The translations under genes were made by a program, and so were the position numbers. This document shows positions 821 through 36,177 of a DNA stretch of 57,826 bases, piece after piece. The notes under the pieces were generated by a model. It saw nothing but the letters and a program-made list of their open reading frames with translations, did not search any database and was not told the origin of the DNA. The DNA is from a bacterium. Its GTDB lineage: Bacteria > Ratteibacteria > UBA8468 > B48-G9 > JAFGKM01. The stretch covers positions 1 through 57,826 of the forward strand of contig JAOAIL010000007.1 of assembly GCA_026414725.1 (NCBI GenBank), written 5' to 3'. Each line of letters opens with the position of its first letter. Positions within the stretch are counted from its first letter, which is position 1.

Positions 821-849
821 ATTATACTCCCTTTTTTTATCTGTGTCAA
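821..849 (-). promoter_or_regulatory. Consensus sigma-70 promoter for 23S rRNA
   Basis: On the minus strand TTGACA (849-844) is followed after exactly 17 nt by TATAAT (826-821), a perfect match to the housekeeping consensus. Transcription would start near 814, leaving a ~45-nt leader before the 23S 5' end at ~769. The leader contains a second TTGACA-like run (CTTTGACAATTTAAA) of the kind often seen just before mature 23S ends. It implies the 23S gene is transcribed independently of any 16S gene. Confidence 0.85.
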
Positions 850-864
850 ATTATTTTACCCTTT

Positions 865-2220
865 TTAAACCACCCTGTCAAGAGAACTTATTTTAGTATA
901 AGAAGATATTAGATTGCAAATAATCTCTTTTTCAGTAGCACCACATCTTTCCTTTAAAAAGTTACCAATTTCATTAACTGCTTTTTTAGGACCCTGTATC
1001 ATTATTTCTACATTTTCGTTTGATAAACCTTCTCTTATGTCAGGAATGGCTATCATCATCTCCACTGTGCTTTTTAAGTTATATTTATTTCTATTGTAGT
1101 AAAGGTATGTATCTAATCTATATTTTTCTGCTATCTGAGTAACAGGCATTATTGGTCTTATGTGAAAGTCCTCTATTCTGTAAGAGTAAAGTATAAGTTT
1201 TTTTGTAGAATAGATAAATTCATCTGCATCCATACCCATTTTTCTGAATATCTTTGCAGAGACTTCCCTTCCCATAATAAGGAAAAATACAGAATAATTG
1301 AGAACAAATTCTCTTAAAGTTTCTTTTATTGCATTGTTTGATACCAAACGAGAAATTTGAGAGTATGTAGAATATCTCCTTACTTTGTCACTATGCCTTT
1401 CATAGAAATGTGCAAGTGCCTTACCCATCTCTAAAAGGTGTAGAGATATAGCCACATGACTTCTTATCTTTTTTATATCAGGGTAGGTATTCTCTATCTC
1501 TGTGTTTTTAAGGAATGTATCATAGAGTGACTCAATCTGGTTAAGTATTGACCTGTATTTCTCCATTACTTCTTCTGTAATTTCTTCTTCTGATTTTATA
1601 CCACATACGAAGGTATTAAATACCTCAGTGCTTTCAAGAAATTTTACCAGGATGCCAACTGCTCTTTCTTCTTTTTCTTTTATTGTATCTTCTTCAATAT
1701 CAGGAGGAAGGATTTTCTTCTGGATTTCTATTAGCATTTTCTTCTTGATATATCTTTCTTTTGTTTTTTTAACTCCAATTTTTAATGCTTCTTCCTGTAA
1801 TGCTTCTCCAAGATTTTTCAGCGCATTTAAATAAAGAGATATCGTCTCTTTTATCTTCTTAATAAATCTCTCTTTTTCTCGTTCAGAGATTTCAAGGTTA
1901 TAACTTTTTACCCTTGCCAGGATATGTAGTCCTTGAAATATAGTAATGTTTATCCATCTTATAGAACCAATCAACTCTCTAAAATAAAAAAACTTTCTGT
2001 TGTGAGAAGCACCATAATCATCAAGGAATGTTTCTATTTCTTCTACTTCCCGCATCACAGAGAATATAAGTTCTCTGTCAGGGAAGGACTTTTTATTTAT
2101 AATCTCTTCAAAAATTATAAGGAGTGTTTTACTTATAGAATTAAGGCGAGGGATAAAATCGTTCTCTATCTCCTTTTCACTCATTATCTTAACCAGCGAA
2201 TCTGTTTTTTTATCTTTCAT
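865..2220 (-). CDS. Hypothetical protein, 451 aa, helical
   Basis: I do not recognise the family. The frame could open 36 codons further upstream, but that stretch runs into tRNA-Ala, so I place the start at the internal Met (MKDKKTDSLVK), preceded by AAGGAA at a good distance. The protein is Lys/Glu-rich and looks mostly alpha-helical, with no signal peptide or clear membrane segment. The C-terminal ~60 residues hold a compact segment (IMIQGPKKAVNEIGNFLKERCG). It lies between tRNA-Ala and the 23S gene on the same strand and is probably transcribed from the tRNA-Ala promoter. Its stop lies only 16 nt from the -35 box of the 23S promoter. Confidence 0.75.
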   Translation of the reverse strand: MKDKKTDSLVKIMSEKEIENDFIPRLNSISKTLLIIFEEIINKKSFPDRELIFSVMREVEEIETFLDDYGASHNRKFFYFRELIGSIRWINITIFQGLHILARVKSYNLEISEREKERFIKKIKETISLYLNALKNLGEALQEEALKIGVKKTKERYIKKKMLIEIQKKILPPDIEEDTIKEKEERAVGILVKFLESTEVFNTFVCGIKSEEEITEEVMEKYRSILNQIESLYDTFLKNTEIENTYPDIKKIRSHVAISLHLLEMGKALAHFYERHSDKVRRYSTYSQISRLVSNNAIKETLREFVLNYSVFFLIMGREVSAKIFRKMGMDADEFIYSTKKLILYSYRIEDFHIRPIMPVTQIAEKYRLDTYLYYNRNKYNLKSTVEMMIAIPDIREGLSNENVEIMIQGPKKAVNEIGNFLKERCGATEKEIICNLISSYTKISSLDRVV

Positions 2221-2287
2221 AAAAATTCCTTTTAATAAATTAAAAATAACAGTTATAGGATATTTTAATCTATTTTTAAAAAATAAG

Positions 2288-2359
2288 TGGAGATAGCGGG
2301 AGTTGAACCCGCAACCTTCCGCGTGCAAGGCGGACGCTCTCCCTTTGAGCTATATCCCC
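2288..2359 (-). tRNA. tRNA-Ala (TGC)
   Basis: The 72-nt minus-strand cloverleaf has acceptor GGGGATA/TATCTCC, D-arm GCTC/GAGC, anticodon loop CTTGCAC (TGC, reads GCA) and T-arm GCGGG-TTCAACT-CCCGC, with discriminator A. The 3' CCA is not encoded. tRNA-Ala(TGC) is a usual resident of the 16S-23S spacer; here it lies ~1.5 kb upstream of a 23S gene with a protein gene between them. Confidence 0.95.
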
Positions 2360-5645: not shown

Positions 5646-5673
5646 ATTATAGAATTTTCATTTACTTTGTCAA
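5646..5673 (-). promoter_or_regulatory. Promoter of the GH4 gene
   Basis: Minus strand TTGACA (5673-5668), 16-nt spacer, TATAAT (5651-5646). It sits back-to-back with the prepilin peptidase promoter, the two -35 boxes being 6 nt apart. Confidence 0.75.
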
Positions 5674-9791: not shown

Positions 9792-10426
9792 AATTAAGAA
9801 GGCGAATGGTAGAGGAACAGATTGTTGCAAGAGGTATAAGAGACAAAAAGGTTATAGATTCCTTTTTGAATGTTCCGAGAGAAAGATTTGTTCCAGAACA
9901 TCTTAAGGAATATGCTTATGAGGATGGTCCACTTTCAATAGGTAAAGGGCAGACCATAAGCCAGCCATATATTGTGGCACTTATGACAGAGGCGCTTGAC
10001 CTTAGCGGTGGAGAGAAGGTCCTTGAAATAGGCACAGGTAGTGGTTATCAGTCAGCAATCCTTGCAGAGATGGGGTGTGAGGTATATTCAGTAGAAAGAA
10101 TACCTGAACTTGCAGAAAGGGCGAGAAAGATATTTATAGAACTTGGATACAATGTAAAAATAAAGATTGGTGATGGTACACTCGGCTGGGATGAGTTTGC
10201 TCCCTATGACAGAATTATTGTAACTGCAGCAGGTCCTGACGTCCCTCCTTCTTTATGTGCTCAACTTAAGGATGGTGGGTCTCTTATAATGCCTGTAGGT
10301 GATAGATACTTTCAGGACTTAATACTTGTAAAGAAGGTAGGTAACCGGATGGAAAGGAAAAGTTATGGGGGATGTCAGTTTGTACTTCTTAAAGGTGCTG
10401 AGGGTTGGAAAAATGAGGGGGAATAG
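9770..10426 (+). CDS. pcm: Protein-L-isoaspartate O-methyltransferase
   Basis: 218 aa class I SAM-dependent methyltransferase that repairs isoaspartyl residues in aged proteins. Diagnostic segments are RERFVPE, the substrate loop GQTISQPYIVALM, and SAM-binding VLEIGTGSGYQSAILAEM. It begins inside the 3' end of the glycosyltransferase gene (22-nt overlap) and shares one base of its stop codon with the following GTG start. Confidence 0.95.
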   Translation: MEEAAFIKLRRRMVEEQIVARGIRDKKVIDSFLNVPRERFVPEHLKEYAYEDGPLSIGKGQTISQPYIVALMTEALDLSGGEKVLEIGTGSGYQSAILAEMGCEVYSVERIPELAERARKIFIELGYNVKIKIGDGTLGWDEFAPYDRIIVTAAGPDVPPSLCAQLKDGGSLIMPVGDRYFQDLILVKKVGNRMERKSYGGCQFVLLKGAEGWKNEGE

Positions 10427-26470: not shown

Positions 26471-26523
26471 TATTTGCTCCTTTATATAGAAATTTACAGA
26501 ATTTTTAAAACTCCTGATTGATT

Positions 26524-26865
26524 TATGGGGTAGTTCGTAAGCCGGATTCTGTTTAAGCGGTCATTCATCTTGACCTGAGGTCACCCTCAGGTTCATGCAG
26601 TCAACCCGAACCTTTTAGGGCAGGGACCCATTGGTTCTGCTTGACCTTGCTCCGGATGGGGTTTACCTTTCCACTCGTAGTTACCTACCAGCGGGTGAGC
26701 TCTTACCTCACCATTTCACCCTTACCTTCCTGTAATGTAGGGAAGGTGGTATGATTTCTGTGGCACTTTCCAGTCATTTCTGACTGCTCCTGTTAGGAGC
26801 CATCCTCCCTGCAGGAGTCCGGACTTTCCTCCCTGAAAGTCAGAGCGACCGCCCGACTACCCCAT
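26524..26865 (-). ncRNA. rnpB: RNase P RNA, bacterial class A
   Basis: The minus strand begins ATGGGGTAGTCGGG (26865) and soon gives the invariant GAGGAAAGTCCGGACT core; the 3' end carries GAATCCGGCTTACGAACTACCCCAT. The terminal P1 helix pairs 26865-26856 with 26534-26525. Length ~342 nt, short for class A but with the expected core. It cleaves 5' leaders from pre-tRNAs. The ends are set by P1 and the -10 box. Confidence 0.95.
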
Positions 26866-34186: not shown

Positions 34187-34257
34187 GCGGGATTAACTCA
34201 GGGGTAGAGTACGAGCTTCCCAAGCTCGGAGCGCGGGTTCGAATCCCGTATCCCGCT
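34187..34257 (+). tRNA. tRNA-Gly (CCC)
   Basis: 71 nt: acceptor GCGGGAT/ATCCCGC, D-arm ACTC/GAGT, anticodon stem CGAGC/GCTCG with loop TTCCCAA (CCC, reads GGG), and T-loop TTCGAAT. No encoded CCA. The transcript would begin only a few nt before the mature 5' end. Confidence 0.95.
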
Positions 34258-34273
34258 CTTTGATGGATAAAAT

Positions 34274-34732
34274 TCAGTTTTTATTTTTTAATGTAGCTAT
34301 CAATTTCTGCATCCTTCTTTGAGAAGGAAGATATCTTATCCCAATGGAAAGGTTTAATATAATAAAAACAACCATCCATGAGATATTCCCACAGATAAGG
34401 AAGCCCATAAAACCTGTTATGGAAATGATATTTAATAGCCATATAGTAAAGAGCACATAAAGAAGATAGAAATGGGTAGTATCTTTCACTGCTGAAGATA
34501 ACCGTTTACTGAAGAAATCAGATATTCCATCACAGAAGAAAAATATGCCGGCTCCTGTAGCAAAAAGAACATACTGGATAAATTTTGCCGGTCCTTCCTC
34601 ATAATTTTCAACTATTCCTGTAAAACCATTTTTATGAAGTATAACTCCCACTATTAATAGTAAGAAAGGGGTGATGAAAGAGATAATGCCCGATATCTTT
34701 ATATTCCTCCACAAAAGATTATTTTTCTCCAT
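34274..34732 (-). CDS. Hypothetical membrane protein, 152 aa
   Basis: Not recognised. Four predicted membrane helices (about 13-33, 53-70, 90-108, 112-132) and a basic C-terminal tail (PSQRRMQKLIATLKNKN). It overlaps the upstream small gene by 14 nt and is probably translated from the same message. Confidence 0.65.
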   Translation of the reverse strand: MEKNNLLWRNIKISGIISFITPFLLLIVGVILHKNGFTGIVENYEEGPAKFIQYVLFATGAGIFFFCDGISDFFSKRLSSAVKDTTHFYLLYVLFTIWLLNIISITGFMGFLICGNISWMVVFIILNLSIGIRYLPSQRRMQKLIATLKNKN

Positions 34733-34913
34733 TTAGTCCTTTTTTCTCTCCAAAATAGTCCATTGACATCAATTCCTGACGGATTGCTGATATACGGGTT
34801 TTAATCAGTAAAGTAGAATAAATACTTTTCATATTTTCAAGTCCATATTTTTGCATAATCTCATAGACACATTCATTTGCCTTTTCAAATTGTATGATTC
34901 TCTTGCTACCCAT
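34719..34913 (-). CDS. Small hypothetical protein, 64 aa
   Basis: Basic, helical, no membrane segment. Supported as a gene by a weak RBS (AAGAGGG), a promoter 100 nt upstream and translational overlap with the following membrane protein gene. Family unknown. Confidence 0.5.
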   Translation of the reverse strand: MGSKRIIQFEKANECVYEIMQKYGLENMKSIYSTLLIKTRISAIRQELMSMDYFGEKKGLNGEK

Positions 34914-35014
34914 GCCCTCTTTTCAGGATGCAACTGTGAGTACTGTAGATTTCCATGAGGCAAAAAAATTATTCCTGTTTTTTAAATAACAATCCCTTCT
35001 TAAAGATACATAGT

Positions 35015-35042
35015 ATTTTATGTATTCATGATATTTTGTCAA
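35015..35042 (-). promoter_or_regulatory. Promoter of the two small hypothetical genes
   Basis: Minus strand TTGACA (35042-35037), 16-nt spacer, TAAAAT (35020-35015). It leaves a ~95-nt leader. The divergent tRNA-Arg promoter begins 9 nt away. Confidence 0.65.
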
Positions 35043-35050
35043 ATTTTATA

Positions 35051-35079
35051 TTGACGGCTGATGTTTCAAAAGTTAAAAT
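35051..35079 (+). promoter_or_regulatory. Promoter of tRNA-Arg(TCT) and possibly pyrE
   Basis: TTGACG (35051-35056), 17-nt spacer, TAAAAT (35074-35079). No terminator separates the tRNA from pyrE, so the unit may be tRNA-Arg-pyrE-tRNA-Arg. Confidence 0.7.
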
Positions 35080-35097
35080 AAGAGAAGAATATAAAAA

Positions 35098-35170
35098 GCG
35101 CCTGTAGCTCAATGGATAGAGCATCTGCCTTCTAAGCAGAGGGCTGCCTGTTCGAGTCAGGCCAGGCGCA
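35098..35170 (+). tRNA. tRNA-Arg (TCT)
   Basis: 73 nt: acceptor GCGCCTG/CAGGCGC, anticodon loop CTTCTAA (TCT, reads AGA), T-loop TTCGAGT, discriminator A, no encoded CCA. Confidence 0.95.
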
Positions 35171-35210
35171 CTACCAATCTTTGTAAATAAATCAAAAAGG
35201 AGATTATATT

Positions 35211-35798
35211 ATGACCTGCCAGAAAGAAAAAAGTTTAGGAGAAATGAAGGTTCGGCTTTTAAATCTTATAAAAGAAAGAGCGCTTTTTTTAGGTCCGAGG
35301 AAACTTGCATCCGGTAAAATGAGTAATTGTTATATTGATGGAAAACTGATTACATGTGACCCTGAGGGAATCTACCTTGTGTCAAAAATTATCCTTTCAA
35401 TGATAGAAAATGAAAAGATAGATGCAATAGGTGGTATGACAATGGGGGCAGACCCTATTTCAGCAGGTGTTGCTGTTTTAAGTTATATTGAAGGCAGACC
35501 TATCAAGGCATTTATAGTAAGAACTGCTCCTAAAGACCATGGGATGGGAAAACTTATAGAAGGGCATATCCAGAAGGGTTGGTCTGTAGTCATAGTTGAA
35601 GATGTTGTTACTACAGGTGGTTCTGCCTTAAAGGCAATCAAAGCAGTTGAAGAGGCAGGAGCAGTTGTTAAGAAAGTTATTGCCATAGTAGACCGTCTTG
35701 AAGGAGCAAAGGAATCACTTGCAGAGAAAAATATTCCCCTCCAATCAATCTTTACAAAAGATGATGTTGATTTCAGCAGTTTACTTTCTTCCAAATAA
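35211..35798 (+). CDS. pyrE: Orotate phosphoribosyltransferase
   Basis: 195 aa. PRPP-binding motif VVIVEDVVTTGGSALKAI and the N-terminal LASGKMSNCYIDGKL identify PyrE, which makes orotidine 5'-monophosphate from orotate and PRPP in pyrimidine synthesis. It is a short form lacking extra domains. RBS AAGGAG sits 9 nt before the ATG. It lies between two tRNA-Arg genes on the same strand. Confidence 0.95.
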   Translation: MTCQKEKSLGEMKVRLLNLIKERALFLGPRKLASGKMSNCYIDGKLITCDPEGIYLVSKIILSMIENEKIDAIGGMTMGADPISAGVAVLSYIEGRPIKAFIVRTAPKDHGMGKLIEGHIQKGWSVVIVEDVVTTGGSALKAIKAVEEAGAVVKKVIAIVDRLEGAKESLAEKNIPLQSIFTKDDVDFSSLLSSK

Positions 35799-35806
35799 TA
35801 TATTAT

Positions 35807-35880
35807 GCGCTTGTAGCTCAACTGGATAGAGCGTTGGCCTCCGGAGCCAGAGGTTGTGAGTTCAAATCTCACCAAGCGCA
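35807..35880 (+). tRNA. tRNA-Arg (CCG)
   Basis: 74 nt: acceptor GCGCTTG/CAAGCGC, anticodon loop CTCCGGA (CCG, reads CGG), T-loop TTCAAAT. No CCA encoded. It begins 8 nt after the pyrE stop, so it is probably processed from the pyrE transcript. Confidence 0.95.
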
Positions 35881-36061
35881 CACTTTATCCGATGGATATT
35901 TCATTTATTACCTTTGCTATTACAGAAAGTGGTTGTTATCTATTTTCAGAGTGTATTCTCATATATATAGTAAAAATAATCCTGCAAACTTTAAAATTGA
36001 TTTTTCAAAATGGTATGACAGATAGGAGTAAAAGGAAAGGTATAGGATATCCTTTATGTTT

Positions 36062-36089
36062 TTGTATTTTTTATAAAAATAAGTATAAT
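36062..36089 (+). promoter_or_regulatory. Putative promoter of tRNA-Lys
   Basis: TATAAT at 36084-36089, 12 nt before the tRNA; the -35 (TTGTAT at 36062-36067, 16-nt spacer) is weak. The preceding 36 kb gap (35881-36061) shows nothing else. Confidence 0.5.
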
Positions 36090-36101
36090 ATAGACCTATA
36101 T

Positions 36102-36173
36102 GGGCCGTTAGCTCAATGGCAGAGCAGGGCACTCTTAATGCCAAGGTTGGAGGTTCAAGTCCTCCACGGCCTA
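36102..36173 (+). tRNA. tRNA-Lys (CTT)
   Basis: 72 nt: acceptor GGGCCGT/ACGGCCT (first pair G-U), anticodon loop CTCTTAA (CTT, reads AAG), T-loop TTCAAGT, discriminator A. The anticodon stem has a G-A at its top pair. No encoded CCA. A run of Ts follows and could help end transcription. Confidence 0.93.
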
Positions 36174-36177
36174 TTTT

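Follow-up and report, generated by a model that had tools for sequence, protein, structure and literature searches.

The rRNA operon of the lineage represented by this genome has very probably been broken into single-copy autonomous transcription units that operate by the mechanism proposed below. The stretch of DNA analysed (the window, 57,826 nt) comprises bases 1–57826 of contig C7 of a 96% complete MAG of 1.52 Mb in 76 contigs, from an uncultured bacterium. An earlier note on this DNA had described a 23S rRNA gene with its own perfect promoter, apparently unlinked from 16S. Its coordinates were correct, and to these findings are now added a detached 5S gene, tandem 23S promoters and the class-wide occurrence of the trait.

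Structure of the 23S rRNA locus

The features of the locus are collected in Table 1. The Rfam match to LSU_rRNA_bacteria begins at window position 769 on the reverse strand, in agreement with the 5′ end of about 769 given previously, and its 3′ side ends at the window edge. As the window starts at base 1 of its contig, only a 5′ fragment of the gene is present. The 3′ part (model positions 2479–2925) was located at C1:1–458 of the same genome, and the middle (model positions 716–2478, about 1.76 kb) was not found anywhere in the assembly. Each piece stops where its contig does, as usually happens at a short-read break, and the genome holds one 5′ piece and one 3′ piece. We accordingly infer the integrity of the gene from its relatives. 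To locate 23S genes in this genome and its relatives, the two pieces themselves served as DNA queries.

Table 1. Features at the 23S end of the window (positions are those of the window)
Feature	Position	Strand	Basis
23S rRNA gene, 5′ part (model 1–715)	1–769	−	cmscan RF02541, 593.8 bits
boxA-like antitermination motif in 23S leader, TGTTCTTTGACAA	782–794	−	read from sequence
Proximal 23S promoter, TTGACA-17-TATAAT (12/12)	821–849	−	sequence match
Distal 23S promoter, TTGACA-17-TAAAAT (11/12)	853–881	−	consensus match
Protein gene between tRNA-Ala and 23S, 451 aa, uncharacterised	865–2220	−	ORF
tRNA-Ala (TGC)	2287–2359	−	tRNA and Rfam search
Predicted tRNA-Ala promoter, TTGACT-16-TATAAT, TG before −10	2410–2437	−	consensus match only

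The exact promoter reported before the 23S gene is present in the sequence. The distal promoter, whose −35 element overlaps the last codons of the upstream protein gene, was absent from the earlier description. An intrinsic terminator (ACAGGGAAGA...TCTTCCCTGT-T9) directly follows the 23S 3′ end, and the 23S leader and trailer are weakly complementary, likewise in intact relatives.

The window contains 5 exact matches to TTGACA-N16–18-TATAAT, where shuffled sequence would give 0.11, and the genome as a whole contains 40, where the reversed pattern used as a control gives 4. Exact promoters are therefore real and moderately common here; among random 150-nt stretches drawn from the window, 0.5% attain a 12/12 promoter match. 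These counts are well above chance, yet rRNA genes are not the only ones in this genome with a perfect promoter. The strong evidence lies in position and conservation. An exact TTGACA-16-TATAAT also stands at window positions 5673–5646 (−), directly before a family 4 glycosidase gene, which shows that such promoters stand before other genes as well.

The ORF and tRNA searches confirmed that a protein gene and tRNA-Ala, not 16S, lie upstream of the 23S gene, and an Rfam scan found no 16S within the 57,826-nt window. The C-terminus of the protein is weakly HPr-like (PTS phosphocarrier), with an invariant H-x-R-P resembling the HPr active site; this gene before 23S is conserved in the order and has distant homologues in Nitrospinota and Planctomycetota. 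Elsewhere in the window are a class A RNase P RNA (26522–26864, −) and genes for tRNA-Gly, two tRNA-Arg and tRNA-Lys (34187–36174).

The 16S and 5S rRNA loci

The 16S gene is complete and lies mid-contig in the 46.6-kb contig C11 (23300–24852, −), and no 23S was found in the 23.3 kb downstream of it on that contig. The two genes are therefore on separate contigs and at least 23 kb apart, which bears out the apparent lack of linkage. In total, the genome contains one 16S and one 5S, with a single 5′ end and a single 3′ end of 23S. The 16S gene is preceded by a perfect consensus promoter (TTGACA-18-TATAAT), and its leader, like that of 23S, has a boxA-like motif. The leader sequence GGAGGTATTCGGACCTC pairs with its own trailer at 16/17 positions. 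A terminator, GCAAGGG-TATAAAAG-CCCTTGC-TTTTTTTTT (T9), lies within 90 nt of the gene, and next after it comes a reading frame that reads from its sequence as dnaJ-like. A short ORF that is predicted to have a single membrane stretch and that ends in a Pro/Gly-rich tail stands just before the 16S promoter (L002, ~9974–10180, −); in most relatives, similar Pro/Gly-rich tails end at the same place.

The single 5S gene (C1:131756–131871) and the 3′ end of 23S are separated by 131 kb. A perfect TTGACA-17-TATAAT precedes 5S, so that all three rRNA genes of the genome carry a predicted perfect-consensus promoter. The 5S unit (L004:1501–1631, −) looks almost leaderless, with a predicted start ~3 nt before the model start; 5S helix I is followed immediately by AUUUUUUAUUU, and f1 relatives are similar.

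Comparison across the class

The search covered as many as 34 genomes from five families (f1–f5) of the same class. Database records that name the closest relatives do so as Candidatus Omnitrophota, Elusimicrobia, TA06 or just bacterium, and we take these relatives to belong to the GTDB phylum Ratteibacteria. In every one of the 19 genomes of the class that include the 5′ end of 23S, a promoter with at least 11/12 consensus bases lay within 200 nt of the gene; it was perfect in 15/19, and two or more promoters in tandem were found in 12/19. For 16S, a promoter with at least 11/12 bases was present in 17/19 genomes (14 perfect), and only one genome had two. The boxA-like sequence TC[TA]TTGA was found in 38/38 leaders (19 of 23S and 19 of 16S), against a chance expectation of ~1.4% per leader, mostly 20–60 nt before the rRNA gene. 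The 5S promoters of 25 genomes matched 10–12 of 12 consensus bases and lay 5–14 nt before the 5S model start, which places the predicted transcription start close to the mature 5′ end. Several f1 genomes have a T-rich run directly after the 5S terminal helix.

No 23S was detected in the available downstream flank of 18 class 16S loci, 4 of which are cut off inside 16S and are uninformative for the downstream side. The genes for 16S, 23S and 5S lie on contigs C8, C11 and C3 of G007 (about 10 contigs), on C29, C12 and C63 of G016, and on C49, C96/C115 and C32 of G029. The three genes are dispersed wherever contigs of the class are long enough to tell; some relatives are too fragmented to exclude 16S–23S linkage, e.g. 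G028, in which both genes are near contig ends. The outgroup G036, from outside the class, has a normal operon (16S-tRNA-tRNA-23S-5S) within 5.3 kb.

The order tRNA-Ala, protein gene, 23S occurs in G000, G003 and G013, and the protein gene also adjoins 23S in G012 and G014. A fixed unit of the three genes was considered and rejected, as the protein gene has no 23S after it in G001, G008 and G009. In G001, which is of the same genus, unrelated sequence follows tRNA-Ala and the protein gene (L040:1989–3011); this contig is of low coverage and 3 kb long.

Absence of RNase III has been reported for genomes with unlinked rRNA genes, according to work cited in PMC7761764. Such an absence was rejected for this lineage, as RNase III is encoded in this genome and in most relatives of the class. 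In several class members (loci L111, L112, L114, L115, L088, L096 and L105), the 3′ half of 23S contains group I introns, some with LAGLIDADG endonuclease genes, and one 23S gene in G033 has about four. The missing 23S middle of the present genome could hide some introns.

Proposed mechanism and alternative explanations

The observed gene positions, motifs, complementarity and conservation suggest how transcription, antitermination, processing and rRNA balance would proceed. RNA polymerase with the housekeeping sigma factor would start at the tandem pair of consensus promoters that closely precedes 23S, and boxA in the short leader would serve to bring in the NusB/NusE antitermination complex. 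A processing stem formed by leader and trailer would be cut by RNase III, and the intrinsic terminator would end the unit. The 16S gene would form an equivalent unit with one promoter, boxA, a processing stem and a terminator, and 5S a minimal unit with a predicted start ~3 nt from its mature 5′ end. As the units are separate, rRNA balance would have to come from matched promoter output in place of co-transcription. A more tentative proposal, to which we give somewhat less than even credence, is that the whole class has three autonomous single-copy units with a near-leaderless 5S, and that promoter architecture (tandem for 23S, one for 16S) sets the 16S:23S:5S balance, possibly offsetting losses from a 23S that is longer and, in several relatives, intron-interrupted.

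The earlier note had itself raised the prospect of a misassembly at this point, or of a second complete rrn operon; neither was found, and the assembly has no second rrn operon. A misassembly or contamination that joined a foreign 23S fragment to the contig, the real 23S following 16S, would fit a 23S gene that lies at a contig edge with its middle missing. It is nevertheless very unlikely, close to negligible, because the separate assemblies of relatives show the same gene order and promoters: the protein gene and 23S adjoin in G003, G012, G013 and G014, and promoter and boxA are common to 23S leaders across the class. The mid-contig position of 16S, with 23.3 kb of 23S-free sequence downstream, and the single 23S 5′ end of the genome also argue against it. 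Collapse of rRNA repeats in short-read assemblies, together with the missing 23S middle, might point instead to a linked rrn operon that went unassembled, the window 23S being a rearranged extra copy. This is highly improbable given that the 16S copy lies whole in the middle of its contig with a terminator of its own behind it, and that no linked copy was found in any class relative, including G007.

The 23S gene might also still belong to an operon in which most of its transcription starts at the tRNA-Ala promoter and continues through the protein gene, the consensus promoters being secondary. Since the protein gene is on the same strand as 23S, no terminator is evident between the two, and a good predicted promoter precedes tRNA-Ala, some read-through into 23S is possible. 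As the main source of 23S transcripts it is improbable, however, as the tandem 23S promoters are conserved and the 23S genes of f2, f4 and f5 keep their own promoters beside other neighbours; in f2, tRNA-Ala and the protein gene remain together with 23S elsewhere. The 23S promoter is also perfect in G008 and G009, where the protein gene is not before 23S, and in G001 no 23S follows tRNA-Ala and the protein gene.

Possible origin of the split

For the autonomous units preferred here, the neighbouring tRNA genes point to an origin. In f2 and f5, tRNA-Ile(GAT) follows 16S, past the terminator where one was found. In f4, a tRNA-Ile-like start, unrecognised by any of the tRNA programs, lies after 16S in G028, and G030 has tRNA-Ala(TGC) directly upstream of 23S with a promoter between them. 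In f1, the protein gene stands between the upstream tRNA-Ala and 23S in the three genomes named above. As tRNA-Ile and tRNA-Ala are the classical 16S–23S spacer tRNAs, the simplest reading is a break between them. This would suggest that an ancestral 16S-Ile-Ala-23S-5S operon split between the two tRNAs, that the tRNA-Ala of the window is probably a remnant of its 16S–23S spacer, and that after the break each piece may have gained its own promoter and terminator.

Relation to known rRNA gene arrangements

The arrangement differs from the canonical rrn operon, in which 23S is directly downstream of 16S in one unit, as a terminator comes right after 16S. It is of the unlinked type, defined in PMC8172020 by 16S and 23S genes more than about 2 kb apart and not co-transcribable; the separation recurs in the class, and this 96%-complete MAG has no linked copy elsewhere. 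A split of the Helicobacter type (16S / 23S-5S) does not apply, given the terminator after 23S and the distant 5S. The genes of this genome, and of G007, G016 and G029, are fully dispersed (16S / 23S / 5S). Since separation of 23S and 5S is described in PMC8172020 as very unusual in bacteria, the genome is assigned to the unlinked kind in its rarer, fully dispersed form. A literature search turned up no paper that connects the phylum by name with unlinked rRNA genes.

Unlinked rRNA genes in Bacteria and Archaea were reportedly described by Brewer et al. in ISME J in 2020, a study cited in PMC8172020, and are also treated in the survey PMC7761764. Those genomes are like the present one in their distant 16S and 23S, low copy number and small AT-rich genome; here 5S is detached too, and promoters, boxA, terminators and processing stems are traced across a class. 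Leptospira, in which 16S, 23S and 5S are all separate, shares the three dispersed genes and belongs to a different phylum. The same applies to Thermoplasma acidophilum, with 16S, 23S and 5S all separate (PMC7761764). Unlinked rRNA genes, which the earlier note stated to be known in several deep or streamlined lineages, are well documented (PMC7761764 and PMC8172020, both of which cite earlier work). In Helicobacter pylori, Borrelia, Wolbachia and Brachyspira (for the last, PMC3532143), 16S is apart as here, whereas their 23S and 5S stay together. Each rRNA precursor of H. pylori matures independently with RNase III, according to work cited in PMC7761764. CPR bacteria, a different lineage, are alike in clade-specific unlinking, in a 5S that is sometimes separate and in having homing endonucleases among their rRNA genes (PMC8172020).

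The arrangement is therefore known but uncommon; its form here is unusually complete and conserved, and apparently extends across the whole class. Its less usual aspects are the class-wide conservation, the detached and near-leaderless 5S, and tandem promoters on 23S versus one on 16S.

In the textbook view, bacteria keep their rRNAs equimolar by co-transcription. The rRNA genes of this lineage have probably been independent for long enough to have conserved promoters, boxA motifs and terminators, which makes it a good system for studying rRNA balance without an operon. With one family in which tRNA-Ala still adjoins 23S, it is also a good system for how an operon breaks. Amplicon methods that span 16S-ITS-23S would miss these bacteria.
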